DNA of 51,709 nucleotides from a virus: the IMG/VR virus record IMGVR_UViG_3300032360_001373, positions 1 through 51,709 of that record. One strand, 5' to 3'. Within the stretch, counting starts at the first letter, position 1; every line of letters begins with the position of its first letter. Shown in pieces: positions 320 to 15,844 of the stretch. Made by a program: the position numbers and the translations under genes. The notes under the pieces are model-generated. The model was not told where the DNA came from and did not search any database. It saw nothing but the letters and a program-made list of their open reading frames with translations.

Positions 320-325
320 ATAGGT

Positions 326-931: not shown

Positions 932-937
932 ATAACT

Positions 938-1123
938 ATGAAAATTGGTGACACAGTTAGAGTAAAAGATGAAACAGCAATCGGAGTGCGTGAGAATGGA
1001 AAGATCATAAGCCTCCACCAAAAAAACACAGTGGCCGGAGTTGAGTGGCGCTTGCATGATGGCGGCGTCCTCTACCAAAGCGAGCTACTAGCCACGCTGG
1101 AACCTTTAGATGAAGATCGGTGA
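938..1123 (+). CDS. KVGDLVR-family small protein (61 aa)
   Basis: Start MKIGDTVRVKDETAIGV, then VAGVEWRLHDGGVLYQSELL. The start is the ATG at 938, 6 nt after the -10 box; the in-frame extension upstream to 764 runs through the promoter and is rejected. It is the first gene of the plus-strand operon and overlaps the next by 14 nt. Probable small beta barrel; function unknown. Confidence 0.85.
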   Translation: MKIGDTVRVKDETAIGVRENGKIISLHQKNTVAGVEWRLHDGGVLYQSELLATLEPLDEDR

Positions 1124-1280
1124 TCTAGTCACTGGAGAGAACTTCAAAGGAGTTGCGCTGATTGTCAAAGTAGATTATGAAGGAGACTTCTATTTACTTA
1201 TGTCAGATGGCAAGCTACTCAATGAATGGAAAAGTAAACTAACAGTGTTTCAAGAAGGTGCGCCCAAACTAAAGCAATGA
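1110..1280 (+). CDS. KVGDLVR-family small protein (56 aa)
   Basis: MKIGDLVTGENFKGVALIV, then DGKLLNEWKSKLTVF. It starts inside the previous gene and its TGA overlaps the next ATG (ATGA at 1277-1280). The pattern is that of its neighbours: a G-D-L-V start, a GVALIVKV strand and an aromatic residue late in the barrel. Function unknown. Confidence 0.8.
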   Translation: MKIGDLVTGENFKGVALIVKVDYEGDFYLLMSDGKLLNEWKSKLTVFQEGAPKLKQ

Positions 1281-1759
1281 ATATCGGAATAGATTTTCAT
1301 GACACACTCTCTTACTCTCCCGAGTTTTTCAAGAGACTAATGACAAACTGGCGAGGGAAAGTCTTTATAGTAACTGGTACCCCTTTGTCTCGGATTGAAG
1401 AAGTCCGTGTCGCATTGAGAGAACTTGGAATCCATGAAGAACTTTACCATGAAATTCTCTGTGGATATGAATACGAAAAAAAAGAAATGACTCTTGAACA
1501 CTTCCATCGAATGGCAAAACACAAACACTCACTCGTTGAGGGATATCAGATTAGCGTGTTCTTCGATGATAACCCGTTCTATGCGAACTATCTCAAAGAC
1601 AAGGGAGTGGTGGTATTCCAGACAATCATCAACAAAAAATATCTTGAAGCGTTTGCCGAGAAGGATCCATTTTTCACTTGCAACCTCCAATCAAAACAAT
1701 TTGAGTTCTTGGAAGATTTGTCTGATGTCGAAATGCTAAAAGAGAATCAGGAATCCTGA
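1277..1759 (+). CDS. HAD-like phosphatase (160 aa)
   Basis: The HAD motifs are visible: motif I as IGIDFHDTLS near residue 3 (nucleophile Asp in DFHDT), motif II as FIVTGTP near residue 30, and motif IV as FFDDNPFY near residue 95, carrying the acidic pair that binds magnesium. The core is small with little cap, so it may act on a nucleotide or a nucleic-acid end. It could also be a 5'-nucleotidase or polynucleotide 3'-phosphatase type protein. It is coupled by ATGA to the gene before it. Confidence 0.7.
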   Translation: MNIGIDFHDTLSYSPEFFKRLMTNWRGKVFIVTGTPLSRIEEVRVALRELGIHEELYHEILCGYEYEKKEMTLEHFHRMAKHKHSLVEGYQISVFFDDNPFYANYLKDKGVVVFQTIINKKYLEAFAEKDPFFTCNLQSKQFEFLEDLSDVEMLKENQES

Positions 1760-1778
1760 TCCATCGGGCGACACTTAC

Positions 1779-1937
1779 ATGAGAGTTGATGATCTAGTTC
1801 GATACTGCGGGCGAGTGTACGTAGTTGAGCGAGCGCAAGAAGGCAAGTATAAGATAAAGAGCTTACGCCCCTACTGGCCCACTCAATGGGTGGAGCAGGG
1901 TGAGCTAACGCCGATGAAGGAACTGTATAAGAAATGA
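1779..1937 (+). CDS. KVGDLVR-family small protein (52 aa)
   Basis: MRVDDLVRYCGRVYVVERA, then GKYKIKSLRPYWPTQWV. Same operon, 19 nt after the HAD gene; its stop overlaps the ATG at 1934 (ATGA). Here the usual Gly of G-D-L-V is Asp. Function unknown. Confidence 0.75.
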   Translation: MRVDDLVRYCGRVYVVERAQEGKYKIKSLRPYWPTQWVEQGELTPMKELYKK

Positions 1938-2233
1938 GCCTCAATAAAAAAATTACATGCAAGGATGGATTTTCAATGAGTGTCCAAGCTAGTGAATACA
2001 ACTATTGCTCGCCGCGACAAGATGGTGCGAAAAGATATCATGCAGTTGAAGTGGGTTTTCCGAGTGCCAAAGAGTCATTGCTTATAGAGTATGCTGAAAA
2101 TGCGTCAGAGCCGGAGAACACAGTGTATCCGTATGTCCCCGCAGCCGTGGTATCTCTTGTAATCGCAAAGCATGGAGGAATCGTCAGCGGTCAGATCCCG
2201 AACGGGATCCCCTACCTAAAGGCACGGAAGTGA
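1934..2233 (+). CDS. Conserved phage-type hypothetical protein (99 aa)
   Basis: It begins MSLNKKITCKDGFSMSVQAS, followed by NYCSPRQDGAKRYHAVEVGF and a C-terminal VSLVIAKHGGIVSG. The look is that of a small globular alpha/beta protein with two early cysteines. I have an impression of similar proteins in marine phages but cannot name a family. It is coupled by ATGA to the upstream gene. Confidence 0.7.
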   Translation: MSLNKKITCKDGFSMSVQASEYNYCSPRQDGAKRYHAVEVGFPSAKESLLIEYAENASEPENTVYPYVPAAVVSLVIAKHGGIVSGQIPNGIPYLKARK

Positions 2234-2240
2234 CCAAGGC

Positions 2241-2495
2241 GTGTCACACCCCGCCGACCGTATCAAGCTCAAGGCTGGAGACTTGATCATTTCTGAATCG
2301 TCGGGCCGATCCTTTTTATTGTTACAAAGGTTCAAGGGTGATGGCGGACATTACTTTTGGGAAGTATTGCGAAGTACCCCTCTCGATGATCCTATCTATC
2401 GTGACGAACCTATCGGTGTAGTCCGTGAGAAGGCAGTACGCCACAACCTCTATGACTCACAAAAAAGATTTACACTATTTAGAAACAAGGGGTAA
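2241..2495 (+). CDS. Small protein with K-A-G-D-L-I motif (84 aa)
   Basis: GTG start. The N-terminus has RIKLKAGDLIISESSGRSF, a divergent form of the local G-D-L-V signature after a short extension. HYFWEVLRSTPL follows. It lies 7 nt after the previous stop. The start could also be an internal codon, since only the GTG and the reading frame support it. Function unknown. Confidence 0.65.
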   Translation: MSHPADRIKLKAGDLIISESSGRSFLLLQRFKGDGGHYFWEVLRSTPLDDPIYRDEPIGVVREKAVRHNLYDSQKRFTLFRNKG

Positions 2496-2500
2496 CGATT

Positions 2501-2521
2501 AGGAGTGCATATGAACTAATG
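2501..2521 (+). promoter_or_regulatory. RBS plus two-codon minicistron before 2519
   Basis: An AGGAG box (2501-2505) is spaced for the ATG at 2511, which opens ATG-AAC-TAA. The TAA shares its last A with the ATG of the real gene (TAATG, 2517-2521). Ribosomes would translate two codons, stop and restart on the overlapping ATG. Confidence 0.5.
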
Positions 2522-2737
2522 AAAACTGGCGAGATAGAATATCAATTCGCCGTCGGTGATTTAGTTCGAGATCAAACAAACAATCAAGCTGGAGTAGTAA
2601 TCGAGGTCGAGGACGTGGGCCCACTAGCTGGGCTGAATCCTGATACCGAGTATCTAATCCGTATAGTGTGGCAGCATACAGGTGAAACCGAGCAACTGCC
2701 TGACTGGTACGCTGAAGAAATCTTATCTATTCTATAG
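2519..2737 (+). CDS. KVGDLVR-family small protein (72 aa)
   Basis: MKTGEIEYQFAVGDLVRDQT, then QAGVVIEVEDVG and YLIRIVWQHTGE, ending YAEEILSIL. The signature follows a short N-terminal extension. Predicted single SH3-like barrel. Its start is reached through the two-codon minicistron at 2511-2519. The tRNA gene starts 7 nt after its stop. Confidence 0.8.
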   Translation: MKTGEIEYQFAVGDLVRDQTNNQAGVVIEVEDVGPLAGLNPDTEYLIRIVWQHTGETEQLPDWYAEEILSIL

Positions 2738-2744
2738 TATATCT

Positions 2745-2818
<74 letters not shown>

Positions 2819-2828
2819 CTTATTTTAC

Positions 2829-2858
2829 TTGACAACACTATAGGTACTATGCTACTAT
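2829..2858 (+). promoter_or_regulatory. Sigma-70-like promoter, near-leaderless
   Basis: TTGACA (2829-2834), 18-nt spacer, TACTAT (2853-2858), 9 nt, then the ATG at 2868. A start site about 7 nt below the -10 box leaves a leader of only about 3 nt. It lies just after the tRNA gene. Confidence 0.7.
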
Positions 2859-2867
2859 GTATATACA

Positions 2868-3095
2868 ATGAAGGTCGGATATCTAGTGAGAGTCAAAGAC
2901 ACTACGCATGACCCCGAGCTACCACCCGAGCGGGTGGGACTCGTTGCGCGTGTGTGGGAGGGTGCCCCACCCCGGACCCCGGCGCGCAGGGCTAGCAGCG
3001 GCACAGACGGTCGTACCTTCTGTGAGGTGCGCTTCCCCAACGGGGCGTTGCTCGACTTCCACATTGAGTTTCTTGAAGTGTTGGGAGAGTCCTAG
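2868..3095 (+). CDS. KVGDLVR-family small protein with GC-rich insert (75 aa)
   Basis: Start MKVGYLVRVKDTT, then VGLVARVWEG and, near the C-terminus, FCEVRFPNGALLDFHIEFLE. Compared with its relatives it carries an extra Pro/Arg/Ser-rich loop near residues 35-48 (PPRTPARRASS), coded by notably GC-rich DNA. It has no ribosome binding site, in keeping with the near-leaderless promoter. Function unknown. Confidence 0.8.
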   Translation: MKVGYLVRVKDTTHDPELPPERVGLVARVWEGAPPRTPARRASSGTDGRTFCEVRFPNGALLDFHIEFLEVLGES

Positions 3096-3096
3096 A

Positions 3097-3180
3097 GTGT
3101 CTAAAGCTCTGACCCTCATTATCCTCACTGTCTTGGGTATTGTCTGTTTCTCTACCAAAGGATGGGATGATGGCGTATGA
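3097..3180 (+). CDS. Mini membrane protein (27 aa)
   Basis: GTG start at 3097, 1 nt after the previous stop. The peptide runs MSKALTLIILTVLGIVCFST and ends KGWDDGV: a short basic start, one transmembrane segment and an acidic tail. The TGA overlaps the next ATG (ATGA at 3177-3180), a coupling typical of real genes here. Role unknown. Confidence 0.55.
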   Translation: MSKALTLIILTVLGIVCFSTKGWDDGV

Positions 3181-3362
3181 GGATCGAAACAGGGGACTTG
3201 GTGCTCGATCACCGCAGTCAGGAAATAGCTCTAGTCATTTCAGTAATTCGCGAAAGCAATGGCTACGTGGAGATAAGGTTTCTTCACGACGGACATCTTT
3301 CCCAAGTGCACAACAAGTATTTGAGTACGTTGAAGAAACGAGGCTTTCATGAACGTCATTGA
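3177..3362 (+). CDS. KVGDLVR-family small protein (61 aa)
   Basis: MRIETGDLVLDHRSQEIALV, then YVEIRFLHDGHLSQVHNKYL. The middle pattern (EIRFLHDGHL) strongly recalls EWRLHDGGVL in the protein at 938 and EVRFPNGALL in the protein at 2868, showing true paralogy within the set. It is coupled to the 27-aa gene and overlaps the methylase gene by 14 nt. Confidence 0.8.
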   Translation: MRIETGDLVLDHRSQEIALVISVIRESNGYVEIRFLHDGHLSQVHNKYLSTLKKRGFHERH

Positions 3363-3864
3363 TGAGTACAAAGGGTGGGAGCCCCACAAAATAAAACAAA
3401 AAATAAAAAATAATACATTTCCATATGCCGTGATGATGCAGCATATCGGAGGAGATTATAATATCTCGACCCTAATTAGAAATGCGAACGCCTTCGGCGC
3501 AAGCGAGGTTTTCTATTATGGAAGAAGAAAGTGGGACCGGCGGGGTAGCGTTGGTACTCACCACTATACTGATCTCATATTTCTGCCTGATTTGGAAAAT
3601 CTTACCCTTCTAAAAGAAAAATATCATTTTGTTGGTATTGAAAATAATGTGCCTCAAGCAAAAAACCTTCAAGAGTACCAGCCTCGGCCCGGAACCCTAT
3701 TTCTTTTTGGAGAAGAGGGCAACGGCATCCTCCCAGAGATCCTTGAACTCTGCGACGAAGTGGTATATGTCCCCCAATACGGCTCGGTCCGCAGTTTGAA
3801 TGTGGGAACGTGCAGCGGGATCATCATGAACGATTACGTGAGCCGGCTAGATCTACATGTCTAA
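3349..3864 (+). CDS. SpoU/TrmH-family RNA 2'-O-methyltransferase (171 aa)
   Basis: The three SPOUT motifs are present: motif 1 as YNISTLIRNANAFGA near residue 38 (Asn and the catalytic-type Arg), motif 2 as LFLFGEEGNGI near residue 118, and motif 3 as VRSLNVGTCSGIIMNDY near residue 147. This is a complete catalytic domain that methylates a ribose 2'-OH in tRNA or rRNA with S-adenosylmethionine, without an extra RNA-binding domain. It lies 530 nt after tRNA-Arg in the same operon, so a tRNA target is plausible (inference). Confidence 0.88.
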   Translation: MNVIDEYKGWEPHKIKQKIKNNTFPYAVMMQHIGGDYNISTLIRNANAFGASEVFYYGRRKWDRRGSVGTHHYTDLIFLPDLENLTLLKEKYHFVGIENNVPQAKNLQEYQPRPGTLFLFGEEGNGILPEILELCDEVVYVPQYGSVRSLNVGTCSGIIMNDYVSRLDLHV

Positions 3865-4135
3865 TCTTGAGAACACAAGAATAAAAAAAAATAAAAAAGA
3901 AAAAAAACCCGAGTGGATAACCCACTCCTATAAGCCCCTTCAAGTGGGCGATCTGGTGGTGCTCCAAGAGAGGCTGCCGGGTGCTGGCGTCGGGGTGGTA
4001 GTACGCTGCATCCCAGCTAACGTATATGAATCCTCTTGTTATGACATCTACTGGTCAACAGGAGTCCGAAGCAACACGAGCGCTCGGCAACTGAGGAGAC
4101 TTTGTGCTGACTGGGTTACGTCTCCTCACAGTTAA
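3857..4135 (+). CDS. KVGDLVR-family small protein with basic N-terminus (92 aa)
   Basis: It begins with a very Lys-rich segment ([12 protein letters not shown], residues 8-19), then [20 protein letters not shown] and a C-terminal SARQLRRL. The basic extension suggests nucleic-acid binding. It overlaps the methylase gene by 8 nt. Its 3' end overlaps that of the opposing dnaJ-like gene by 20 nt, with no terminator between the convergent genes. Confidence 0.75.
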
Positions 4136-4775
4136 GAGTAACTTTATACCTCTTGACTTCTATGACAGTGCCCACGGTGTTGCATTCACTACAGGGTGAT
4201 TCAATATGCCTACCTCGGCCAGCACATGCTCCACAGGGGTGGGCGTTTGTCATAATAATGTTGTGACCACGACGAGTTTGTTGTACCTGTCCGACGCCGT
4301 TGCAGGTAGTACAAACATGGACGTTCTCGCCGCCTACCCCACGACAGGAGCCACACACTACCTCGTCCTGAATCCTGACGTGTGTAACAACGGGCGCGCC
4401 CATAGTAAGTTTGGAGAGGGGTATTTGAAAGTTGACATTCTTTTCGCGAGGTTTCTGCGTGGGGGGTGGCGCTTGCTGCGCTCGACCAAACATTTCTTCG
4501 AACAGGTTACCAAAGCCAGCGTGAAAGCCGGGCCCGAAGGGGTGGCCACCTTGTCCGTTGAAGGGGCTGGACGATCCCAAATCATATTGTTGTCGTTTAG
4601 CTGGATCCGAAAGAGTTGAGTACGCCTCATTTAGTTCTTTAAACTTTTCTTCTAACGCGCCCGAGTCGTCAGGGTTTAAATCAGGGTGGTATTGACGAGA
4701 GAGCTTCCGAAAAGCCTTCTTCAGATCTTCCGGTGATGCTTTCTTGCCCACACCTAGGAGGTCATAATAATCCAT
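4116..4775 (-). CDS. dnaJ: DnaJ co-chaperone, C-terminally truncated (219 aa)
   Basis: J domain at residues 1-65 with the HPD triad (QYHPDLNP), needed to stimulate DnaK ATPase. A short G/F-rich linker follows, then the zinc-binding region with four CxxCxGxG-type repeats ([32 protein letters not shown]) near residues 138-205. Normal DnaJ is about 370 aa; this protein ends just after the zinc region and lacks the second substrate-binding domain and dimerisation segment. No DnaK is in the window, so host DnaK is the likely partner. Confidence 0.93.
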
Positions 4776-4786
4776 CGTTCCTCGCG

Positions 4787-5134
4787 TTACAGATTAGCTT
4801 TAACAGTCTTAAGAAATCTAATTGAGACTACTCCTTTTATAGCTAATATCTCTCCTCTCAAGAAAGAAGTGAATGTTGTAATTTCAGCTTTCTTGACCGG
4901 GGTAAATTTAAGACGGATCCCAACTAGCTGCCCGGAGGGCAACTGATCCACGGGGCTTGTAACATTTACAATCCTCACACCTTCAATCTCTCTGATGCTA
5001 TTTAAACAGTATTTCTGTGCTCTGATTGTTTTATCATAAATCAAAGCTGCATCTGTTTCATATCCAATCTCGATCCTACCCTGCTTTCGCTCTTGCTCAT
5101 TGAGCTTGTAGTTTTTCCATTTCTTTGTATTCAT
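4787..5134 (-). CDS. Hypothetical protein (115 aa)
   Basis: Basic N-terminus ([20 protein letters not shown]), then two alpha/beta repeats: [28 protein letters not shown] and [17 protein letters not shown]. The strand pattern would fit a ferredoxin-like (ACT/RRM-size) fold, but that is only an impression. Its ATG overlaps the upstream TGA. Function unknown. Confidence 0.7.
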
Positions 5135-5394
5135 TCTTTCTCGGCCCTTTTAGAGATCACTCTTAAAAAATCTATGTCCACCCATCCTGATATCATTTCT
5201 TCTCCAGATGGGTTGGTGGAATGCCACTTGGAGAACACATGCGAAGAGGTGAGGTGCACATATGCCTTTTTCACTATCTCGTCTCCGAGTGAAAAATCTT
5301 TTGTGTTTACCACGATCCCCAGCCACTCCTCGTCCATCAATATATGATTGACCAAATCTCCAACCTCAACCTCTGTGCCTCTTGTCTTACGCAT
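5131..5394 (-). CDS. KVGDLVR-family small protein (87 aa)
   Basis: MRKTRGTEVEVGDLVNHILM, then WLGIVVNTKDF and SGWVDIDFLRVI. It is the only clear member of the family on the left-going side besides the two at 1-319. An ACTATTTATT sequence lies just upstream on its coding strand. There is no good ribosome binding site at normal spacing. It overlaps the next gene by ATGA. Confidence 0.75.
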   Translation of the reverse strand: MRKTRGTEVEVGDLVNHILMDEEWLGIVVNTKDFSLGDEIVKKAYVHLTSSHVFSKWHSTNPSGEEMISGWVDIDFLRVISKRAEKE

Positions 5395-5421
5395 ACCATC
5401 ATAATAAATAGTCCTCTATTC

Positions 5422-5739
5422 TTATTTAAACTTGGTGTGGAGTCTATAATCGAGAAGTTCCTGAGCTGCTTTGAATTGCTCATCAGTCAATACTTCGTCA
5501 AGATTGGTGCGTGCAAGAGATATGAAGTCGTCCTCTGTTTTTATGATGGACGTATCATATTGAGTATACTCATACAAGTCTACATACGCCGCAAATAGCT
5601 TCTCAAAGATCAGGAGTGCCCGATCCTCGTCCCAATCAAACACTTCTAACAAGCGCGTATGCAAATTCATCTCTGTTAATAAACCTACAGCCTCTTTTGG
5701 TAGCGTCACTCCGGGTTTAGTTTTAGAGTCTTCCGACAT
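5422..5739 (-). CDS. Hypothetical acidic helical protein (105 aa)
   Basis: Mostly helical and acidic: LTEMNLHTRLLEVFDWDEDR, LIFEKLFAAYVDLYEYTQYD, and EVLTDEQFKAAQELLDYR. No domain recognised. It overlaps the upstream gene by 34 nt and so is translated from the same message. Confidence 0.7.
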   Translation of the reverse strand: MSEDSKTKPGVTLPKEAVGLLTEMNLHTRLLEVFDWDEDRALLIFEKLFAAYVDLYEYTQYDTSIIKTEDDFISLARTNLDEVLTDEQFKAAQELLDYRLHTKFK

Positions 5740-6140
5740 TGTTTTCCCTTTTTCTTTGTTCCAATAACAGTATTTTTTGAGGCGGATTTAAGTATCTTCT
5801 CTCTCCACAACTGTGCAATTGCGGGATCCTTCCTGACCACCTTGAACCCTTCGGTTTTGGGGCTATCAAAGTCGCCGCGTATCGTTCCGTGTATCTCATT
5901 ATTAATAATCGTTTGTCCGCCTAGAGCTTGTTCTCCACATCTTTTCTTAAACTCTCGGAGAGCGCCTTCGCTTTCATCGTAGTACGCCACGGGTTCGTGA
6001 GAACAGTTAGTGGAGGACACTACCCACTGGCATTTCGTTTTCTGTGAGTCATCCTCAGTTACTAAAAATGACATCGTTAGATCTACGTCATTAGAAAACC
6101 CTATCTCTCGTAACAAAACTTCAATAAACTTTTTACTCAT
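5706..6140 (-). CDS. Hypothetical protein (144 aa)
   Basis: N-terminal half SKKFIEVLLREIGFSNDVDL and SFLVTEDDSQK; a middle rich in small residues with Cys at CQWVV, NCSHE and RCGEQ; a strongly basic C-terminus (KNTVIGTKKKGKQCRKTLK). No family recognised. It starts 13 nt after the protease gene in the same left-going operon. Confidence 0.7.
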   Translation of the reverse strand: MSKKFIEVLLREIGFSNDVDLTMSFLVTEDDSQKTKCQWVVSSTNCSHEPVAYYDESEGALREFKKRCGEQALGGQTIINNEIHGTIRGDFDSPKTEGFKVVRKDPAIAQLWREKILKSASKNTVIGTKKKGKQCRKTLKLNPE

Positions 6141-6153
6141 CTTAATTATACCG

Positions 6154-6879
6154 TTAGTTCCCGGGTTTTTTAACCCTCTCCCACTTCTTAAAATATACTT
6201 CTAGGTGTTTTACAATCGCATCAACATGTATTGATATGGAGGAGTGAGGATATTCATTGTGGGTCGCTGATATAGCTCCAACCACCTCATGTTGTATATT
6301 ATAGACCGGGCCACCGCTGTTGCCATGATAAGCTGGGACCGATGTTATCAGGCGTGCTTTGGCGTCTGAGTCGTCATCAGGGTCAAGCCCCAAGAGATCG
6401 TGCCCTACAACAAACCCTTCTGTCTTTGTGGGAAAGGCTCCGCCGGGTGCTCCGATGGTGTAAACACGGTCGCCCATGAGAGGAGCCTCGGATGCAAAAA
6501 CAATCGGAGAAAAAAGATCACCTGTATCATAAAGGCGCACAATGCACATATCGTCACTAGGTGTGGTGTACACTACCCGGCCGGTAAACACCTGACGCTC
6601 GTTTCCCTCATGCGGTATTGTTGCTCCCTTGACGTCGTTGCCGCGTCTCAAACATAGATGGTGCACGGTAACAAAATAGGTGTTATTATTTATATTTCTC
6701 ACAGCGAAACCTGTGCCTCCGGCAACGCCCTCGGGGTGCTTCACCAAGAGGTGAGCCACCGAATAATAGAGTGGGTCTGCTTTCCGAGGAACATCAGTGT
6801 ATTGTGAATACACGTGTGTGTTCTGGTGAGTGCACGAAACTAAACTAATGCCTAACAAAAGTGCCAATAATGATTTCAC
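6154..6879 (-). CDS. Trypsin-like serine protease lipoprotein (241 aa)
   Basis: The GTG at 6879 is chosen because GGAGG lies 7 nt upstream and the product then begins with a clean lipoprotein signal (MKSLLALLLGISLVSC, lipobox LVSC). The longer frame back to 7002 has no signal and runs into the upstream gene. The triad is readable: His in FVTVHHLC, Asp in SDDMCIVRL, Ser in HGNSGGPVY, with AYHGNSGGP typical of chymotrypsin/DegP-like folds. No PDZ domain. Predicted membrane-anchored protease outside the cytoplasm. It starts 12 nt after the MopE/VWA lipoprotein gene, suggesting joint function. Confidence 0.87.
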   Translation of the reverse strand: MKSLLALLLGISLVSCTHQNTHVYSQYTDVPRKADPLYYSVAHLLVKHPEGVAGGTGFAVRNINNNTYFVTVHHLCLRRGNDVKGATIPHEGNERQVFTGRVVYTTPSDDMCIVRLYDTGDLFSPIVFASEAPLMGDRVYTIGAPGGAFPTKTEGFVVGHDLLGLDPDDDSDAKARLITSVPAYHGNSGGPVYNIQHEVVGAISATHNEYPHSSISIHVDAIVKHLEVYFKKWERVKKPGN

Positions 6880-6890
6880 ATGTGTACCTC

Positions 6891-9089
6891 CTATCGACAG
6901 ACGTCGCTGAATATATCGTCTAAATATGTCCTTACTGTTCCCGCATCTATCCCCGCATAAAGTCGATAGCATTCTTGAGCTATGTTCGCCGGGGCGCACC
7001 ATTGAGAGGTCGAGTACTGCGGAACAATGGCAAACACTTCGAGTGTGTCATCTGGTTCGCAATTACCCAGTGTACACGGAGTTATTACTGCCCTTACGTC
7101 CGCGGCAGTAAGTGGTGGCTGACGGTACGACTGCGCATGTTCATCTGTCATTACGACAACCATTGGCCAAGCATCGTCTCTAAAGGTGAGCCCAAGGCTA
7201 TTCACTGCGATGCTTTCCACCGCATCATATTGAGGCTCCTCGTTCCAAAAGTTACAACTCAATTGAGCCATCGCTGCAGCAAAGGTGAGCGAGTCGGTTA
7301 GGTTAATCTGTACGTCGGGGGCACCGCTGTCACGTCCCGGAATGTTGACCAGTGCAAACCGATGTGCGGAGTTGGCAAACTCCAACACGTAAGGCTCGAT
7401 GGCTGCTCGGAGTGTTCTTATCTTATTACACATAGACCCGCTCCGATCAATGGCGAACACCATATCAACTTTTTCATGTGCATCTAGATCTTCGTCTATA
7501 TCTCCGTCGCAGTCGTCGTCCACATGGTTACAGACTTCTTCAATTGGTAGCGTCTCACCCTCACAATAACCATCTACGAACACTCCTCCAAGATCATTCC
7601 CCCAGCGCCCTCGTTCACAGACCGCCTGCCCGCCGGTGCACTCTCCGACATTTTCAGTGCCGGGAGGTCCGGTGTAACACCTACTCACAAGCCCTTCATC
7701 CACCACCTGATCACAGTCGTCGTCCCACGCGTTGCAGGCTTCGGCCGAGGGGGTTCCCCCCGTTGGGTCGCAGTCTTGTTGTCTTTGTTCTTCGAAGGCA
7801 CACATAGCCATACAGTCAGTAAACCCTGTGCTGCTGCACGCGTCATCAACGCACACACATTCCACAAAGCCCGTGCCGCACGTTAACTGTGGGTTGCTCT
7901 GGCACGGTAACAACATTCCCAAAAATTCAGGGGGGCATGTACATTCGAGACCCTCATCGACTTGCCCATCACAGTCGTTGTCCTCAGCGTCGCACACTTC
8001 CTCTTGTGGTTCGGGTGCGTTGCAACTCTCCCAGTACCCAAAGCGGCATGACTCAAACCCAGACCCACAAGCGCTTTCGCAGGGTCTAATCAAATCTTCA
8101 TCAACGGCTCCATCGCAGTCATTGTCGAGATTATCACACTGCTCCACCTGTGGGGTCTCAGGTCCGTTGCATAGCAAATCAGACCCATCACAGTAGAGGG
8201 AGCCGTACTGGCATATGCCCACGTCAGTAAGACCGCATCGATCACCTTGACCAACGGGGCTATCATCGACGACGCCATCGCAGTCGTTGTCCACGGAGTC
8301 GCAGACCTCCATAGTGGGCAGCACTTCGTTTAAACACCCGGACCACTGACCGTCGGAGCACAGTTCGATGCCAGTTCTACAAGGAGTCTCGGGGTTCATA
8401 GGGCTGTTAAACACTAACCAGTCTTGTGGCGTACCGTCTGGATCAGAGGCACCTGACCAACACATTCTCTTGAGTCCCTCATCTATGTGCGCGTCGCAAT
8501 TGTTGTCACGTCCGTCACACAGTTCTGTTGCGGGACCGACGGCGCCCAGGCAACCACCCGTGATCCACTCGTCGTCGCCAGTGCCCCCTGTCCTGTCGGG
8601 ACCATCAAACCATGCGCCCCATCGTGAGCCTCCCTCGGACAGTTCGCGGCAAGACTGATCTCCGTAGAGACACTCCCCAAAGAGTGCTCCAGCTTCGTTT
8701 GTATGTTCTTCGAGGGTGCCGAACTCTTTTCCTTCCGGGTCGAGCCAACACCTTCGCCTGCTGGATGCCCAACTTACAGAATAGCCCTTGTTAGCTGGCC
8801 AGCACTCACACCCCTCATCAACACCAACGTCGCCGTAGCCACAGCGCGTTCCGTCACCATTTGTATCTTGTTCTTCTAGTGGCTTTGAAAGGCAGTCGCA
8901 GTTGTTGTCGTTACCATCGCAGAGTTCTGGTATTGTCTCATCATATTCTGCGTGGGGATTATTATATTTACAGGAAGTATCGGGTGGGAAGGGCGTAGCG
9001 GTGCCGCTGCCAAACAAAGAGTTGTCTTCACAGGCGCAACCTGCAATCAACAACATTATGGGTAGCCAACAATTAGCTCTTAATACCAT
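6891..9089 (-). CDS. MopE-repeat/von Willebrand A lipoprotein (732 aa)
   Basis: Signal peptide with lipobox (LLIAGC, Cys near 18). Seven CDxxDNDCDGxxDE-type metal-binding repeats (MopE-like) are spread over residues 57 to about 530, for example CDNLDNDCDGAVDEDL and CDAEDNDCDGQVDEGL. Then comes a VWA domain from about 540 to the end, with the MIDAS start VFAIDRSGSM and later VVVMTDEH. Such architectures are common in surface lipoproteins of Myxococcota and related bacteria and unusual in phages. Very Cys-rich, so it should fold outside the cytoplasm. The overlap with the PMM gene (17 nt) shows it belongs to the phage operon. It may alter the host surface or mediate adhesion (inference). Confidence 0.88.
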   Translation of the reverse strand: MVLRANCWLPIMLLIAGCACEDNSLFGSGTATPFPPDTSCKYNNPHAEYDETIPELCDGNDNNCDCLSKPLEEQDTNGDGTRCGYGDVGVDEGCECWPANKGYSVSWASSRRRCWLDPEGKEFGTLEEHTNEAGALFGECLYGDQSCRELSEGGSRWGAWFDGPDRTGGTGDDEWITGGCLGAVGPATELCDGRDNNCDAHIDEGLKRMCWSGASDPDGTPQDWLVFNSPMNPETPCRTGIELCSDGQWSGCLNEVLPTMEVCDSVDNDCDGVVDDSPVGQGDRCGLTDVGICQYGSLYCDGSDLLCNGPETPQVEQCDNLDNDCDGAVDEDLIRPCESACGSGFESCRFGYWESCNAPEPQEEVCDAEDNDCDGQVDEGLECTCPPEFLGMLLPCQSNPQLTCGTGFVECVCVDDACSSTGFTDCMAMCAFEEQRQQDCDPTGGTPSAEACNAWDDDCDQVVDEGLVSRCYTGPPGTENVGECTGGQAVCERGRWGNDLGGVFVDGYCEGETLPIEEVCNHVDDDCDGDIDEDLDAHEKVDMVFAIDRSGSMCNKIRTLRAAIEPYVLEFANSAHRFALVNIPGRDSGAPDVQINLTDSLTFAAAMAQLSCNFWNEEPQYDAVESIAVNSLGLTFRDDAWPMVVVMTDEHAQSYRQPPLTAADVRAVITPCTLGNCEPDDTLEVFAIVPQYSTSQWCAPANIAQECYRLYAGIDAGTVRTYLDDIFSDVCR
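7487..8921 (-). repeat. Seven MopE-like CDxxDNDCDG coding repeats
   Basis: Within the lipoprotein gene at 6891-9089 the segments encoding CDGNDNNC, CDGRDNNC, CDSVDNDC, CDNLDNDC, CDAEDNDC, CNAWDDDC and CNHVDDDC recur at uneven spacing. The conserved part is short, and the linkers differ in length and sequence, so this is an old divergent repeat rather than a recent tandem array. Confidence 0.8.
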
Positions 9090-9828
9090 CCCTACTAGTA
9101 TATAGGGCGCTCGAATTCAATATCGCCCTAGTTTCTACCCAGCTACCCACGTTGAAGTGCACACCGCAACCAAGCTTTTCAATGGTTTGCCGCGCAGCGA
9201 AGTCATTTCCGCCTTCTTCGCAACGGTCGCCAATAAAAATGATCTGGTCATGAGATTGCTGGAGAAGATAGTGTACGCTCTGTGACTTATCGTTTCCACG
9301 TGGAAAGATATCCAAACTTATTTGTCCTCCGATAGCAACGCCTAGGTCGGGAAACTTATTAATTAAGATGTCTCTAATGCGCTCCCTCTCCCCGGTTGCT
9401 CCGTCATAAGCGACATAACGCTTGCGAGCGGCTGGGCGACAGCCTCGGCCACAGATCGAGAAGTTAACCATCCCAACACGTGTTTCAATATGAGGTTCTT
9501 CCCTCCAGGGCAAAGAATACTGGCTGTCCCGAAGGAATGAGTGTAGCTCTTCTATTAATTCTTCAGGGATCTCAAAGGCGTTCCGATATATTAATTTATC
9601 TCCTCCCTCTTCAAGAAGTTCGTTCCCCATACAACAAAAGATTCCAGCAGCCATGTCTAATATATCCTGAGGCACCTGTTGTTGCACCTTCTTGAAATCA
9701 CTTCCCGTGACGAGGTAGAAAACATTGGTCTGGGCCCACCTCTTGAAGAAGTTGGCGAACGTTGGGAGCATATGCTGGCGGGGAGGAGTCAGGGTGCCAT
9801 CTATATCAAAGAGGTATCTCTTATTCAT
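9073..9828 (-). CDS. Phosphomannomutase, eukaryotic (HAD) type (251 aa)
   Basis: Start taken at the ATG 9828, directly before the first motif (MNKRYLFDIDGTLTP); upstream in-frame codons lie inside the preceding gene. The HAD nucleophile loop FDIDGTLTPPRQ, the FYLVTGSDFKKVQQQ segment, VNFSICGRGCRPAAR in the cap, IGGQISLDIFPRGNDKS, and the acidic IIFIGDRCEEGGNDF are all hallmarks of PMM1/PMM2-like enzymes (about 246-262 aa), unlike the bacterial ManB type. It would convert mannose-6-P to mannose-1-P for GDP-mannose. Its ATG overlaps the upstream stop. Confidence 0.85.
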   Translation of the reverse strand: MNKRYLFDIDGTLTPPRQHMLPTFANFFKRWAQTNVFYLVTGSDFKKVQQQVPQDILDMAAGIFCCMGNELLEEGGDKLIYRNAFEIPEELIEELHSFLRDSQYSLPWREEPHIETRVGMVNFSICGRGCRPAARKRYVAYDGATGERERIRDILINKFPDLGVAIGGQISLDIFPRGNDKSQSVHYLLQQSHDQIIFIGDRCEEGGNDFAARQTIEKLGCGVHFNVGSWVETRAILNSSALYTSRDGIKS

Positions 9829-10252
9829 CGTGGTGCGGCACCAACTCATAAAACAACATGTAAACCTCATCACCCGGCTTGTTATCACTGAAGGCGTCTT
9901 TCTTCAAGAAGACGCGGGCAAACTGCGCTTCGTTGTTAGCATTTTGACTATTGATATACAAAAGGATCATCAGCTTGGCCACAGTTTCGTTAAATTCGCT
10001 GTCCTCACCGTACCAGATGCTGACCAATAAGTCATCAAAGCCTAGGCAATTTCCCTTGAAGCGCATCACGGCGGTGTACACGCCGTAGGTAGCGGGGGAG
10101 ATGGGATAGTACTCGGTTGGCTCGTTGCAGGTCTCCTTTACCTTGTCGGCACTGACGGACCTTTTCTTCTTCAAGTGGCTCAGAGCGGTGCACGACGTTA
10201 GCAGTAAACACAGCGCTATGCTGACTTTAAATCTCTTGAAATAGATACTCAT
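9821..10252 (-). CDS. Small lipoprotein (143 aa)
   Basis: N-terminus MSIYFKRFKVSIALCLLLTS followed by Cys: basic residues, hydrophobic core and lipobox LLTSC, so a predicted lipoprotein cut before the Cys near residue 21. The mature part starts with a Lys-rich stretch and has two more Cys (ETCNE, GNCLG). No domain recognised. It lies between the GAPDH-like and PMM genes, overlapping both, and is one of three lipoprotein genes in this operon. Confidence 0.75.
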   Translation of the reverse strand: MSIYFKRFKVSIALCLLLTSCTALSHLKKKRSVSADKVKETCNEPTEYYPISPATYGVYTAVMRFKGNCLGFDDLLVSIWYGEDSEFNETVAKLMILLYINSQNANNEAQFARVFLKKDAFSDNKPGDEVYMLFYELVPHHDE

Positions 10253-11339
10253 GAAAACTCTCCATTATCTTATTATGTTTTTCGGGTGGGTGTAACGACA
10301 ATGACGTAGCAGCGATGCTGCTCAACAACGAATTGCCATCTTGGGGGGTGAAACAAAAGCCAGTGAGCCATGTTTCGCCAGACATGGGTGGAGTATAAAC
10401 GTGTAGAGATTCCTCCACCAACACGCCATGATTCATTAATCTTCCATAGTATCCGTGATCCCGACCAAAGGAAAAGACTCGGCCGGCGTCGTTCTTTTCC
10501 GTGGTAGCAAAGTATTTATTCTTTTCAAACATGGACAAGATTGCATGGCGCGCGTAAACACCACGGAGACGTATATTAAATCTAATACAGTGCATATACT
10601 GGGTGTTTAGCTTCATAGAGCTAGAGAACGCCGGCACCACTCTGTCGGGAGTAACGGTAAGTAATAGATCTACCGCATCTTGTGCATGGTGGGTGCCATA
10701 CAGCCTATTATGATGTCCGTCCACGGTTGGCGATGCGGCAAATCCTTTGTGTTGGCTTATGTCGCTAGCACGTCTGATACACACAAAGTCTGCCATCGTG
10801 ATGCTCGTAAGGGTGGGATCAACCGTCTTGAGTAGCGCTGCGATGTTGTGTGTGTTACAGCTTACAACCTGAATATACGGATGCTTCTCTCGCAAGAGCA
10901 ATCCGTCGTTGATACCGTGAGCGAAGGGTGTCCCGAAGCCTTTCTCACTTCCTTGCGCAACAAAAACCTTGTCGCTATTTTTGGAAAACTCCTCATAAAG
11001 TAATTCTTTGTTCTGGTTGCCGGCCGGGGTGCAGTCGACGATCACGTCTGCTTGCTCCAGTGCGTTTATCATGGTGAAGCTTACACGATGTCCCAACTGG
11101 GCAAACTTCTCTATGTTGTCCTCATCGACAACGAGCTTTGCGCCACGATCGATCAAACTGTTAACCTTGGACCTTTCATAGCTGAGGGGGGTTCTTTTGT
11201 GGAAGAGGATATTCTCTATTTCTAACTCTTCTGCAAAGTCACAAAGTAAACCAATCAGAGGCTCGCCAATGGTACCAGTACCAATGACCAGCACGGTTCG
11301 TTTAGTCAACGCTCTCTCCGAAAAGTTCCTGCTCACCAT
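10227..11339 (-). CDS. Archaeal (type II) glyceraldehyde-3-phosphate dehydrogenase-like enzyme (370 aa)
   Basis: The order of motifs follows archaeal GAPDH: Rossmann start VLVIGTGTIGEPL (about residue 16), ADVIVDCTPAGNQ (about 105), the catalytic Cys segment VVSCNTHNIAALL (about 160), VCIRRASD (about 187), SSSMKLNTQYMH (about 243), and the C-terminal FSFGRDHGYYGRL with VLVEESLHV. Bacterial-type GAPDH lacks this pattern. It should reduce or oxidise a phosphorylated aldehyde with NAD(P); the true substrate is open. The start may instead be the TTG at 11309 (GGAG 7 nt upstream), as the ATG at 11339 lies 38 nt inside the preceding gene. Confidence 0.75.
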   Translation of the reverse strand: MVSRNFSERALTKRTVLVIGTGTIGEPLIGLLCDFAEELEIENILFHKRTPLSYERSKVNSLIDRGAKLVVDEDNIEKFAQLGHRVSFTMINALEQADVIVDCTPAGNQNKELLYEEFSKNSDKVFVAQGSEKGFGTPFAHGINDGLLLREKHPYIQVVSCNTHNIAALLKTVDPTLTSITMADFVCIRRASDISQHKGFAASPTVDGHHNRLYGTHHAQDAVDLLLTVTPDRVVPAFSSSMKLNTQYMHCIRFNIRLRGVYARHAILSMFEKNKYFATTEKNDAGRVFSFGRDHGYYGRLMNHGVLVEESLHVYTPPMSGETWLTGFCFTPQDGNSLLSSIAATSLSLHPPEKHNKIMESFHEYLFQEI

Positions 11340-11679
11340 CCTGATAGGTAATGATAGTTTTGTTTGACGGGTGTGGTTCTATGTGCACTTTGATAAAATC
11401 TGTCATTGAATCAAAGATGGCGATGCCGCCGCGGGGTGTGGGGTAGAGCCAGTGCACAATACACTGTCCCGTGGCTAGCGTCACTCCCTCAATCACGATG
11501 CCTTCACCGGAGATACCAGTCTCATCACTACGGCGACATACTGTAAATGTGCGGATGCCTTCCGGAGCCAGCTTGGGAAGTGACTTGGGCTTCAAGTCAA
11601 CTTCAACAGCTTCAGGCTCTGGCGTTTCTTCGTCCGGGGTGCCATTGCTAGGCGCCGGCGAAGTACTTGGGTTTGTCAT
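11302..11679 (-). CDS. Hypothetical protein with small beta domain (125 aa)
   Basis: The first 40 residues are a Pro/Glu-rich linker (PSTSPAPSNGTPDEETPEPE). The rest is a beta-rich domain with RRSDETGISGEGIVIEGVTL, CIVHWLYPTPRGGIAIFDSM. Similar TGVSGxGxVAEG domains occur in many unrelated phages as proteins of unknown function. It starts below an extended -10 promoter (11701-11709) and overlaps the GAPDH-like gene. Confidence 0.7.
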   Translation of the reverse strand: MTNPSTSPAPSNGTPDEETPEPEAVEVDLKPKSLPKLAPEGIRTFTVCRRSDETGISGEGIVIEGVTLATGQCIVHWLYPTPRGGIAIFDSMTDFIKVHIEPHPSNKTIITYQDGEQELFGESVD

Positions 11680-11700
11680 AAAGTTGGTTCTCCATTTCTC

Positions 11701-11709
11701 ATTATACCA
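11701..11709 (-). promoter_or_regulatory. Extended -10 promoter
   Basis: Minus strand TGGTATAAT (TATAAT at 11701-11706 with TGG before it), about 22 nt above the ATG at 11679. No clear -35 box. It may start the long cargo operon running down to 4116. Confidence 0.5.
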
Positions 11710-11725
11710 GAAAGGTTGCTTTTGT

Positions 11726-12340
11726 TTAGTTTTTATATGTCCATTCTTTAATGCTTTTTACATATGAAGCGCTTCTGACGATCTCGGAAAGCATTATCAC
11801 ATACTTGGTTTGCAACTCTGGTCTTCCTGACTTCTTGATCTGTTCTATTATATGTTTAAGTTCGAGAACAGCCACCTCACAGTTTAAATAGTATTCTATC
11901 GCATCTATAACACTTTTAATAGCCGCATTGTTGAATGACCGGGAGGAGGTGGAAAATTGGTAGCGAGTCCCCGTTGAATTAGAAACATAAACATCCACCA
12001 CCACAGCGACGTCAGTACCCTCGCGCTTTCTGCGTGTGAGAGGATCAATGTCGATGGAAAAGTCAACAAATTCTATATCATCTAGAGAAAAGTATTGCTG
12101 GGAGAAATGTTGCCTCATCCCAGAAAACAGAGCGTCGATGAGCCCATCACCCGTGGAAATGATTGTGGCGACATGCGGCCCAAGTTTGGCGTTGCACTCT
12201 ACAGTTGTTCTGTCTTCCTCTAGATCCTCTCGAATGACCACATCTTTTATAAGAAGTTCCACATATTTCTCTTTAAGAAAATCCTTTACTAATTTCAAAG
12301 TCTCCTCTTTCTGAAGTTGATCGGGAGTGCGGTGTTTCAA
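11726..12340 (-). CDS. Free-standing LeuA-type regulatory (allosteric) domain protein (204 aa)
   Basis: TTG start overlapping the upstream TGA. Residues about 45-160 match the pattern of the C-terminal LeuA dimer domain of isopropylmalate/citramalate synthases: ECNAKLGPHVATIISTGDGL, IDALFSGMRQHF, IEFVDFSIDID, VAVVVDVYVSN, YQFSTSSRSFNNAAIKSVID, AIEYYL. The catalytic TIM barrel is absent. Such a domain binds leucine or isoleucine and dimerises in the full enzyme. Alone it may sense an amino acid, or poison or retune the host enzyme by mixed assembly (inference). Confidence 0.7.
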   Translation of the reverse strand: MKHRTPDQLQKEETLKLVKDFLKEKYVELLIKDVVIREDLEEDRTTVECNAKLGPHVATIISTGDGLIDALFSGMRQHFSQQYFSLDDIEFVDFSIDIDPLTRRKREGTDVAVVVDVYVSNSTGTRYQFSTSSRSFNNAAIKSVIDAIEYYLNCEVAVLELKHIIEQIKKSGRPELQTKYVIMLSEIVRSASYVKSIKEWTYKN

Positions 12341-12948
12341 GAGGCATGCTCCAATACTGCGTGGAAGTAAGAAACCATGTACGGCTCCTTTTGATCGTCA
12401 GGACAATCATACCACTTCCAAGCAGTAGTTTCAATTATTTCTTTGATTCGATCCTGCATACTTTGAATTGAATCTTTGATATACCTCACCTGATTTGGTG
12501 TAGGTTTTGGGATCTTAATTTCCAGTCGTTTGGCGATGCGTTGAAGTTCTACCCAGTTGCCTTCTTCATAAAATTCTTTGGCTTGTTGGAAAAGTTTAGC
12601 CTTTTCTTCTTTTATCTCTTTGTCCTCGACACATTCGTATTTGTCAGGATGAGTTTCCCTCGCAATCCTTTTGTATAGATTCTTTAAGTCTGATCGAGTT
12701 GCGTCTTCTGGGTTGGTTGTGGCGGCCTCGTCGGGGGTGGGAGTCGGCACCTGATTAATCTGGAAGTTCTTTGCGTCAACGGCTGCCCGAAAATCCTCGG
12801 GTAACTCCTCATAAAGTTCATTGTAGGCTGCGGCGAACTTCTCTTTACGCATCGCTAGTTCTTGTTCGTGCTCATCAAGCTCTAGTTGTATATATTCATG
12901 CTTTAAGAGGAATTTCTTATAGGCAGTACGAACAGAGGCTTTGGGCAT
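12337..12948 (-). CDS. J-domain-like protein (203 aa)
   Basis: An N-terminal coiled-coil-like half (ELDEHEQELAMRKEKFAAAY) is followed near residue 90 by LKNLYKRIARETHPDKYE, with the HPD triad of J domains, then KAKLFQQAKEFYEEGNWVEL. The C-terminus carries TAWKWYDCPDDQK. The canonical helix I is weak. This type occurs as a conserved hypothetical in marine phages (from memory). It could recruit host DnaK, and is unlike the zinc-finger DnaJ at 4116. Confidence 0.7.
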   Translation of the reverse strand: MPKASVRTAYKKFLLKHEYIQLELDEHEQELAMRKEKFAAAYNELYEELPEDFRAAVDAKNFQINQVPTPTPDEAATTNPEDATRSDLKNLYKRIARETHPDKYECVEDKEIKEEKAKLFQQAKEFYEEGNWVELQRIAKRLEIKIPKPTPNQVRYIKDSIQSMQDRIKEIIETTAWKWYDCPDDQKEPYMVSYFHAVLEHAS

Positions 12949-12949
12949 T

Positions 12950-15844
12950 TCATAGAGTGCTCAAAAAGTCGCTGATCTCGTTAAGCTGTTCTTCAAATTT
13001 ATCCCTCTTCGCAGGAACGGGGTCTCCAAAAGTACCTCTCAGGGGGAGGCCGATCTCTGGAGAAAGATCCTCAGAGGGCTGGTCCATCATGGCATTCAGT
13101 TTATTCACTAGCTCTTGCATCCCCATCATCCTCATCGAACTCTTGATGGAACTCAAGTGGGCCGACACCATATTACCGTGCAGCGTGGTGCTGTCTATGT
13201 CAGCCCAAGTGGCGACGCCATAGGCGCGGGGGCCAGTGGATGTTCTCATAGGCACCTTGCTATCTAGAAGACTGCGGAGGGCTATCGAGGTTTCCTTCAT
13301 CTGGTCTGTCTTGGTGCGTAGCACATTCGCGATGCCGGCATTCCTGTCAAGGTAACCCGGCTCCGTGTCACCAGGCGACTGTCCGCCGCGCGTGCCCCTA
13401 GCATGCTCGGCTTCCTTTGACTTCACAACATCTTCCCAAGTCATCTTATCTACTGTGTCGAGGAGAGTCTCGATGAAGTCGACTCTTCGTTGGTTCTTTG
13501 CTTCGCGGTCGGTGTCCTGTTTCTTTCTCCAAGTCTCATACTTGGCTAATCTCTGTGCGAGGACAACTGCTGCCGACTCTGCTATCTCTTGGAGATTTTC
13601 ACCCTTATCAAAGTAATGGATAGTCTCCAATGCAATGTGAACATCTTCATCGGAAGTGTCTGTTTGCTTCATTAAGAATACAATGTTTAGTTTAACTTTG
13701 AACTCTCTATCATTATTGTCGTAAGGGTTGGTGAAAATTCCAAAGGGGTAGACGCGCATAAACGATGAGATATCAAAACTTTCTAATACTTCTGGAAGTC
13801 TGTCCTCCTCTTTGGGGAACGGAATAGAGAGTTGCGTGCCTGCATATTCTTTTGCTTTTTCGAAAGAGTCTTTTAAGTTCTGCTTGACCTCGTAATCAAA
13901 CTCTTGAGAATGCACACCGGAGGGTGTGCCCTTTACATGAGAGACTGGGCCCACTCGGAACACATCTTCAAAATCTACTGATGTTCTGCCTGTCCAATCG
14001 AACTTTCCTATTATTAAATCTTTTGTTACCATCGGCTTAAGTTCAACTGTAAGTTCCCCGTCTTCATAGTCCCATTGGAAGTGTTTGAATTCTAAATCTT
14101 CCTCAGTTAAATCTTTCTTTAGTTTATCAAACTCGGAGGGTCTGATGTAACCTTCGTCAACGAGAACCTTCCTTATGGCTTCGCGGATCTCGTCGTATTT
14201 CTCCTCCCACTCACTCTCTATGGCGTCGGCGAAACCATCAAATGATCGGGCGTTCATTTCATCGAAGTTTGTCGAGTCGGCGTACATTCTAGCGTGAAGG
14301 GTCCTCTTTCTGCGGACTCCAAGTGGCTTGTGGGTTTCAGGATCATACGCCTCCACCGGGCGATCATAATAATTCAGATTAACTTCTTCGAGGGGCGCCT
14401 CGGGCCACTCCCCTAAGGCAGTGTCCACTGCTTTCCTGATCTTATCGTTGAGATCGCGGTCGTTGTCCGTCCCGCTCCAGTCTGTTGGCACATCTTCAAT
14501 CCACTCTTCGTTGTTTAGCTCTACTGTCATCCCTCCGCCGAAGGTGACATAAGGGTAGTCCATTGCATCAACGTCGTGTTGAACGTGAGCGTGTTCGAGC
14601 CTATTGTCTGATACTTGTTGGATCTGGTTGCACTCTTCAACCAGTTGGTTGAATGCGATTTCTAATTCGTCTTCTTCCTCGTCCTCCGAATCCTCATTGG
14701 TGTCCCCGTAGTATACGTCGGTGTCAAAGAACCGGTTGAATGTGCGGCCAGCCTCAGTATCTTTGTAGGAGCCGCCTTTCCTAGTGAACGAGTAGAGGTC
14801 AGGTCCTTCGATGACTTCGATGGTGCCATCCTCATTCTCCTTCATTTTGATGTCTGAAGCTTTTTCGTCCAGGTATTCTTTCTGCGCGGACAGTGTCCAG
14901 TCCCTAAGCGATTCAAGGAATCCGGGTGGGAGGTCACCATACACACGAGTCTCGGGCACTGCTAGTTCATAATCCTCCTCATCATTCACATACTTCCTGA
15001 GACGTACTCTACCGACAGGTTCGATACCGTCCACATCTCTTCCCTTATCGACGAATATTTCGTCGTCCTCAAGATCGACATCCTCAAGGTCAGCAGTGTT
15101 AACAACGTAGGCAACGGGTCCGTGACCTCTTGCCTCCGCCATGGCGCACTGGAAGTGGGAGGCGCCTTCGGAGTGGCATGAATGAATCAGTGTGTGATCC
15201 GACATTCGGAGAATATCAATTGGATGGCGAGATACGACAATGGAGAGAGGGGCGGGCTCCAATAATTCTTCGGGATTCTTCGTGTAGTATTCAAGTTTTG
15301 TATTGAGTAACTCCTGATACTTTTCTAGTTGTCCCTTGGTTATATCACCTTCGTGTTCTTCCTTTTTGAGAGCCTGGGATAGTTTAACCTTCTCCTTCTT
15401 CACTGACTTTTCGCCTGCTCGTGGACCCTTAGGGATAGTGTATTCCTTCTCTCTTACCATGTTCAAGTCGTATCGAGTTTCATCGCGCTCTTTAACTTCG
15501 CCTGTACCAGCTTCACGATATTTCTGTTTAACTGTGCGCTGCTCAAAATCAGGCTCCCACCCTGCCTTCTCTAAGGAACCCATCATGGTTGCCACTGTGC
15601 GCTGTTCTTTAGTGGTCAGTGGAAAGGCGGAGCGCCAACCTTGTGTGCGCCAGTCATCATAGTCACCAAACATATGACCAAACGAGAAATCCTCCTCGTC
15701 GGCGTTCGACATCCAGTCTTTAATTTTTTCGTAGTTTCCGTAAGATATCTCGTTTAAGAACTCTCTTCTTATCTTTCGAGATTCCCGAATGGGGTTTGGT
15801 TGGTTGCGCTTCTTCCAACCCTTTACAAGTCTGTATATGTCCAT
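12950..15844 (-). CDS. Large unknown protein with His/Cys cluster (964 aa)
   Basis: The first 25 residues are a basic leader (RLVKGWKKRNQPNPIRESRK). Around residues 205-245 there is a striking conserved-looking block: VVSRHPIDILRMSDHTLIHS, CHSEGASHFQCAMAEARGHG. The middle is acidic (DTNEDSEDEEEDELEIAF), and the C-terminus is helical with coiled-coil potential. I have seen the SRHPxDIxRMS block in phage proteins of unknown role. It may be a virion or ejected protein. Its message probably starts near the ACTATTTATA element at about 15859-15868, behind the hsp20 terminator. Confidence 0.75.
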   Translation of the reverse strand: MDIYRLVKGWKKRNQPNPIRESRKIRREFLNEISYGNYEKIKDWMSNADEEDFSFGHMFGDYDDWRTQGWRSAFPLTTKEQRTVATMMGSLEKAGWEPDFEQRTVKQKYREAGTGEVKERDETRYDLNMVREKEYTIPKGPRAGEKSVKKEKVKLSQALKKEEHEGDITKGQLEKYQELLNTKLEYYTKNPEELLEPAPLSIVVSRHPIDILRMSDHTLIHSCHSEGASHFQCAMAEARGHGPVAYVVNTADLEDVDLEDDEIFVDKGRDVDGIEPVGRVRLRKYVNDEEDYELAVPETRVYGDLPPGFLESLRDWTLSAQKEYLDEKASDIKMKENEDGTIEVIEGPDLYSFTRKGGSYKDTEAGRTFNRFFDTDVYYGDTNEDSEDEEEDELEIAFNQLVEECNQIQQVSDNRLEHAHVQHDVDAMDYPYVTFGGGMTVELNNEEWIEDVPTDWSGTDNDRDLNDKIRKAVDTALGEWPEAPLEEVNLNYYDRPVEAYDPETHKPLGVRRKRTLHARMYADSTNFDEMNARSFDGFADAIESEWEEKYDEIREAIRKVLVDEGYIRPSEFDKLKKDLTEEDLEFKHFQWDYEDGELTVELKPMVTKDLIIGKFDWTGRTSVDFEDVFRVGPVSHVKGTPSGVHSQEFDYEVKQNLKDSFEKAKEYAGTQLSIPFPKEEDRLPEVLESFDISSFMRVYPFGIFTNPYDNNDREFKVKLNIVFLMKQTDTSDEDVHIALETIHYFDKGENLQEIAESAAVVLAQRLAKYETWRKKQDTDREAKNQRRVDFIETLLDTVDKMTWEDVVKSKEAEHARGTRGGQSPGDTEPGYLDRNAGIANVLRTKTDQMKETSIALRSLLDSKVPMRTSTGPRAYGVATWADIDSTTLHGNMVSAHLSSIKSSMRMMGMQELVNKLNAMMDQPSEDLSPEIGLPLRGTFGDPVPAKRDKFEEQLNEISDFLSTL

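Follow-up and report, generated by a model that had tools for sequence, protein, structure and literature searches.

Here we ask why a phage should encode a pair of lipoproteins, one with MopE repeats and a VWA domain and the other a trypsin-like protease, and whether these genes are part of the phage at all. The window, that is, the whole stretch of DNA analysed, comprises 51.7 kb and is a virus record in IMG/VR. The initial annotation had placed two neighbouring lipoprotein genes at 6154-9089, and both ORFs are found there with their lipoboxes, while a third lipoprotein gene just upstream had been overlooked (Table 1). This third lipoprotein belongs to no known family. The window has three predicted lipoproteins, and they all fall within one four-gene cluster.

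Table 1. Positions of features in the window and in the MopE-VWA protein
Feature	Position	Strand	Length	Remarks
DegP/HtrA-like serine protease lipoprotein gene	ORF 6154-6879; coding 6157..6879, stop codon 6154-6156	-	241 aa	lipobox LVSC
Translational junction	6880..6893	-		Shine-Dalgarno AGGAGGT, belonging to the protease gene, overlaps the TAG stop of the VWA gene
MopE-VWA lipoprotein gene	ORF 6891-9089; coding 6894..9089, stop codon 6891-6893	-	732 aa	SPII signal, lipobox LLIAGC18, lipid Cys18
MopE-VWA, Cys-rich stalk	residues 57-528			motifs
MopE-VWA, VWA/MIDAS head	residues 536-732
HAD phosphatase gene, eukaryotic-phosphomannomutase type	9073..9888	-		phrog_29277, a PHROG of unknown function
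Third lipoprotein gene	9821..10252	-	143 aa	lipobox LLTSC
GAPDH-like gene	10227-11339			type II (archaeal-type)
Chaperone genes	4116-21332			GroEL, Hsp20, DnaJ with Cys-rich centre
Second DnaJ-like protein	12337-12948
GroES-like protein	35084-35368
Lytic transglycosylase gene	33903-34376			ThyX/g33071 site
Small ORFs with 'xxGDLVR' type motif (examples)	158-319	-
	1110-1280, 1779-1937, 2519-2737, 3177-3362, 3857-4135	+
tRNA-Arg (TCT)	2745-2819			single
G+C-rich block	50400-50600			Pro-rich tail of ORF 50369-51601

Structure of the MopE-VWA protein

The MopE-VWA protein, with 59 Cys, is predicted to consist of a lipid anchor, a stalk and a head. The MopE motifs of the stalk, which start at residues 57, 191, 263, 318, 366, 452 and 520, had been described as seven CDxxDNDCDG repeats. 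Seven motifs are indeed present, all of them fitting the degenerate pattern C[DN]xx[DN][DN][DN]C[DN], and the strict form is found in three only. The Pfam family Cu-binding_MopE (PF11617) matches the whole protein (E=1.2e-16, 61.1 bits vs a cut-off of 27), and six of the single repeats are individually under the Pfam cut-off. We take the Asp/Asn pattern DNDCDGxxDE to resemble Ca2+ loops.

The VWA head is nearly invisible to sequence profiles (VWA_2, E=0.098, under the cut-off). A structural model based on an alignment of 80 rows gives a confident VWA fold at 535-732, with high pLDDT at 540-730; in the N-terminal region 93-186 model confidence is low. Within the head, D548/S550/S552 (the MIDAS DxSxS), E618 and D649 are invariant among the 80 aligned homologues and D622 is kept in at least 90% of the rows; E618 followed by D622 presumably resembles the integrin beta arrangement. 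The predicted fold and these residues bear out the MIDAS-bearing VWA domain of the initial annotation. Compared with integrin I domains (VIA), the predicted head gives a Z of ~17.9 over 169-177 aligned residues, with an rmsd of 2.5 for an integrin I domain aligned over 169 residues. The VWA domains of TFIIH, which are intracellular, score the same (VIA), and the VWA fold alone is therefore no proof of adhesion. In close relatives identity is 0.78 in the MIDAS loops vs 0.67 in the remainder of the head, and these conserved loops suggest a ligand of one conserved type. Among close relatives the putative binding head does not show the hypervariability that might be expected if it were in an arms race with rival phages.

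Lipoboxes were called with a home-made SPII rule, not SignalP. This rule is positive for 59 of the 88 MopE-VWA family members and for all three lipoproteins of the window; an earlier, stricter rule that it replaced had called 10 of the 88. In the alignment, the lipid Cys is aligned in 86 of the 88 homologues and, like many other Cys, is invariant across the 80 divergent homologues of the alignment used for structure prediction. The residue at +2 after the lipid Cys is Ser in 37 and Asp in only 2 of the 86, so that the inner-membrane retention signal of E. coli is nearly absent. The +2 Asp rule is established for E. coli and may not apply in the host of the phage. Taken together, the lipid anchor, the rarity of +2 Asp, the Cys-rich modules and the MIDAS head suggest that the protein is an exported, probably outer-membrane, ligand-binding tether.

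The protease and its pairing with MopE-VWA

The second gene had been annotated as a 241-aa serine protease with an intact triad. It matches Trypsin_2 in Pfam (E=6.9e-17), and eight homologues, some of them only 23-30% identical, all keep the triad H115/D151/S229 (numbered on the longest ORF), which supports the annotation. The predicted fold is of the chymotrypsin type, as in DegP/DegS. No PDZ domain was found in the Pfam search, the protein stopping about 50 residues past the catalytic Ser, and the score against the NCBIfam model degP_htrA_DO is 34 bits, with a cut-off of 416. The best start is GTG 6879, because its Shine-Dalgarno shares bases with the stop codon of the VWA gene, and in the sub-clade of the window the two genes are translationally coupled.

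Gene order supports the view that the pair belongs to the phage. The small lipoprotein, the phosphomannomutase-like HAD, MopE-VWA and the protease follow each other in this order also in L007, L090 and L092, which are related viral contigs, and in L171, a contig from a MAG; the close relatives L089 and L093 have MopE-VWA and lack the protease. At the amino acid level the relatives are 0.66-0.72 identical to the window in MopE-VWA, 0.52-0.60 in the protease and 0.64-0.75 in GroEL, and synonymous change is saturated. For MopE-VWA, identity on a par with GroEL at saturated synonymous change indicates purifying selection as strong as that on a phage chaperone. Such conservation of the pair, which four further genomes share and purifying selection maintains, is far beyond chance. 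The initial annotation had argued that the pair is not contamination, a view against which absence from related phages combined with assembly breakpoints at its edges would speak; the pair is flanked by phage genes and present, in the same order, in all four genomes.

Outside this sub-clade the association is looser. Searching for close relatives with the protease sequence alone gave no match, and an alignment-based search found one locus. Tight pairing is limited to the sub-clade of the window and three other loci; a diverged lipoprotein protease adjoins MopE-VWA in L130, L139 and L154. In other phages a similar protease usually lies 7-250 kb from MopE-VWA. Among contigs of at least 100 kb the protease is present in 16 of 22 with MopE-VWA vs 5 of 12 without it, a difference that is not significant (p=0.14). 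An obligate pairing as a general rule was rejected on the grounds of this p value and the usual distance. The two genes had been proposed to act as a pair; this is supported only in part, since most related phages have no protease next to MopE-VWA. The distance and the non-significant co-occurrence suggest that MopE-VWA is the main element and the protease a frequent, optional companion.

Genomic context

The HAD phosphatase is kept directly upstream of the VWA gene across the sub-clade, and the third lipoprotein is kept upstream in L007, L090, L092, L093 and L171. Lipoproteins are enriched among the genes adjacent to MopE-VWA (15/157 vs 34/1619, p=9e-6, a value that overstates independence because orthologous loci were counted). 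The neighbours in the window include DnaE, RecA, DnaB, ThyX, RNR, GroEL, Hsp20, DnaJ, ClpP and an amidase. The chaperone set, which also includes a second DnaJ-like protein, is unusually full for a phage, and a GroES-like protein is encoded as well.

Several other features were observed. The glyceraldehyde-3-phosphate dehydrogenase-like gene, which scores 83 bits against NCBIfam NF003251 (under the cut-off), is present in L089 and absent from the syntenic place in L007, L090 and L092. At the ThyX/g33071 site, where related phages have MopE-VWA, the window has a lytic transglycosylase gene. At least eight small ORFs in 1-5394 start with a common 'xxGDLVR' type motif and probably encode small beta-barrel proteins of one expanded family, and a similar ORF is found at 13276-13551 of L007. 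The single tRNA gene is similar over 57 bases to tRNA-Arg genes of T4-like enterophages. The G+C-rich block reaches 73% G+C, with ~45% around it.

Distribution and evolution

A MopE-VWA profile matched 280 viral contigs. The best 80 of these, together with loci selected by DnaE, yielded 88 distinct MopE-VWA proteins that are full or nearly so. Among the 19 large contigs examined, which reach 281 kb, 17 encode Gp23, the major capsid protein of T4 type, and 18 a DnaE-like polymerase. The carriers are large T4-like marine phages with DnaE-type polymerases. The gene is not universal, as several large contigs picked by DnaE alone are without it, and two phages have two tandem divergent copies each (L028 4203-7812 and L132 9353-13979). 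It lies in the ThyX-DnaE interval in 31 loci, after the GroEL/Hsp20 block in ~20, and elsewhere in others. The tree follows genomic position, with 5-9 changes per class vs 19-27 in shuffles. This suggests that MopE-VWA has been inherited within phage lineages and has long been a gene of phages.

Within the plasmid collection, cellular matches were limited to MopE repeats, namely those from Sandaracinus and Persicobacter (27-29% identity), and the full architecture was found nowhere in that collection. Nor was a cellular relative found among the 109 genomes of the order or the 398 genomes sampled from the phylum of the MAG G060, the only MAG to hold phage contigs, or in a phylum of nine genomes. 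A cellular origin was set aside, since the plasmids and genomes searched hold no full-architecture relative. A cellular donor may lie beyond the genomes covered, in phyla rich in MopE proteins such as Myxococcota. The architecture had been called myxobacteria-like, and this finds no support, given its own long history in phages and cellular matches confined to MopE repeats; nothing points to the predation-linked behaviour suggested with it. Scanning genomes with DnaE turned up a single MAG of relevance (Acidiferrobacteraceae, Tara Red Sea), with two short phage contigs. As this could be a case of mis-binning, we draw no host from it.

The family is absent from PHROGs, NCBIfam and PADLOC, the PADLOC matches being generic trypsin-domain ones only, and no match was found among 50,697 records of cultured phages. 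MopE motifs, MIDAS VWA domains, HtrA proteases and phage exclusion lipoproteins are each known separately, and we found no earlier description of their combination in a phage in the literature searched; a 2025 'moraphage' paper mentions neither VWA nor DnaE nor trypsin.

Possible function

We tentatively propose that MopE-VWA is a lipid-anchored, adhesin-type protein that most likely changes the surface of the infected cell, leading to superinfection exclusion or receptor masking. Surface remodelling and superinfection exclusion had been among the roles suggested in the initial annotation, and both are plausible. The proposal draws on sequence, conservation, predicted fold, motif invariance, gene order and phage context. 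The protein would be made during infection, along with the replication and chaperone genes, exported by the Sec/lipoprotein pathway of the host, with the outer membrane as its most likely destination. There a disulfide-rich stalk of metal-binding MopE modules (the metal being probably Ca2+) would carry the VWA head, which may bind its ligand through the MIDAS metal. In the sub-clade of the window the translationally coupled, membrane-tethered DegP-like protease and the adjoining third lipoprotein would form with it an envelope-modification module, in which the protease may trim or control proteins of the envelope. The altered surface would keep rival phages, or progeny already released, from adsorbing or injecting. 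Superinfection exclusion would be the likeliest use of such an alteration and adhesion the next; known exclusion lipoproteins, though, are small and unrelated, and the protease adjoins MopE-VWA in a minority only.

It is unlikely, though worth weighing, that the protein is instead an adhesin. Infected cells would then adhere to one another, to cells not yet infected or to marine particles, and progeny would emerge close to new hosts. The lipid anchor, the long Cys-rich stalk and the predicted integrin-like MIDAS head would all suit this role, as would the common ligand that the conserved loops suggest, but an outer-membrane lipoprotein need not face outward. If it faces the periplasm, it might act with the DegP-like protease and muramidases in envelope quality control or lysis timing, keeping the envelope intact while a long infection runs its course, or helping to breach it in the end. 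The DegP/DegS fold of the adjacent protease, the many chaperones and ClpP of the phage, and the lytic transglycosylase genes that recur beside MopE-VWA at the ThyX site (cluster 8) are consistent with such a role. We consider it improbable, as the VWA/MopE architecture is not known among spanins or lysis proteins, most relatives have no adjacent protease, and the co-occurrence of the two is not significant.

Metal scavenging, with copper or some other metal captured on the surface of the infected host, is brought to mind by the name Cu-binding_MopE and by the MopE of Methylococcus, a secreted copper-binding protein (PMC3423442). The copper site of that protein is two His and a kynurenine (PMC3423442), not the Asp/Asn/Cys motif, and metal scavenging would leave the VWA head without a role, which makes it very unlikely. 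That the gene is cargo from a host, or contamination, with no role in the phage is hardly credible. MopE repeats do exist in bacteria and the gene has a GC of 0.533 vs 0.467 for the window; against this stand the same phage-flanked place and order in four genomes, 88 distinct phage copies with a tree that follows position, strong purifying selection, and the lack of a cellular relative among 398 genomes sampled from the G060 phylum.

Returning to surface modification, a wider form of the proposal is possible but rather doubtful: a broad lineage of marine T4-like phages would display integrin-like tethers, adhesion or receptor blocking would be a standard part of infection, and the protease of the sub-clade would process the tether or its targets. 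Phage genes that act on the exterior of the infected cell are known chiefly from temperate phages, as small exclusion proteins. MopE-VWA is a large lipoprotein, strongly conserved and shaped like an adhesin; many large marine phages, all uncultured, carry it, and the phage family libraries searched do not contain it. Were its function demonstrated, it would represent a new class of remodelling of the infected-cell surface in the ocean, and a named, testable gene in phages without a cultured host.

Comparison with known systems

Like other proteins with MopE motifs (PF11617), MopE-VWA is exported and Cys-rich, with repeated C[DN]xxDNDCDGxxDE modules; unlike them, it is a phage protein in which the repeats form a stalk joined to the VWA head and the lipid anchor. 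In the MopE of Methylococcus the copper site lies in another part of the protein than the Asp/Asn/Cys motif. Integrin I and other MIDAS VWA domains share the fold and the invariant DxSxS and Asp, but at 10-17% identity, and MopE-VWA is a lipoprotein of a bacterial virus without an integrin partner. The protease shares the protease-domain fold and the triad with DegP/DegS (HtrA), from which it differs in having no PDZ domain, in its lipoprotein anchor and in an identity of ~20%.

Llp of T5 is a phage lipoprotein that we take to act in superinfection exclusion. Ltp of TP-J34 is one with proven exclusion function (PMC3952083). Both resemble MopE-VWA in being phage-encoded, lipid-anchored and made in the infected or lysogenic cell; they are small, have other folds, come mostly from temperate phages or siphoviruses and share no sequence with it. 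The VWA domain is also encoded by other large phages: the vWA proteins of jumbo phages are a cochaperone of the MoxR ATPase (fused to a metallopeptidase) and TerF of the Ter system, associated with sub-membrane structures (PMC7824862). MopE-VWA differs from these in its lipid anchor and MopE stalk, and the word lipoprotein does not occur in PMC7824862.
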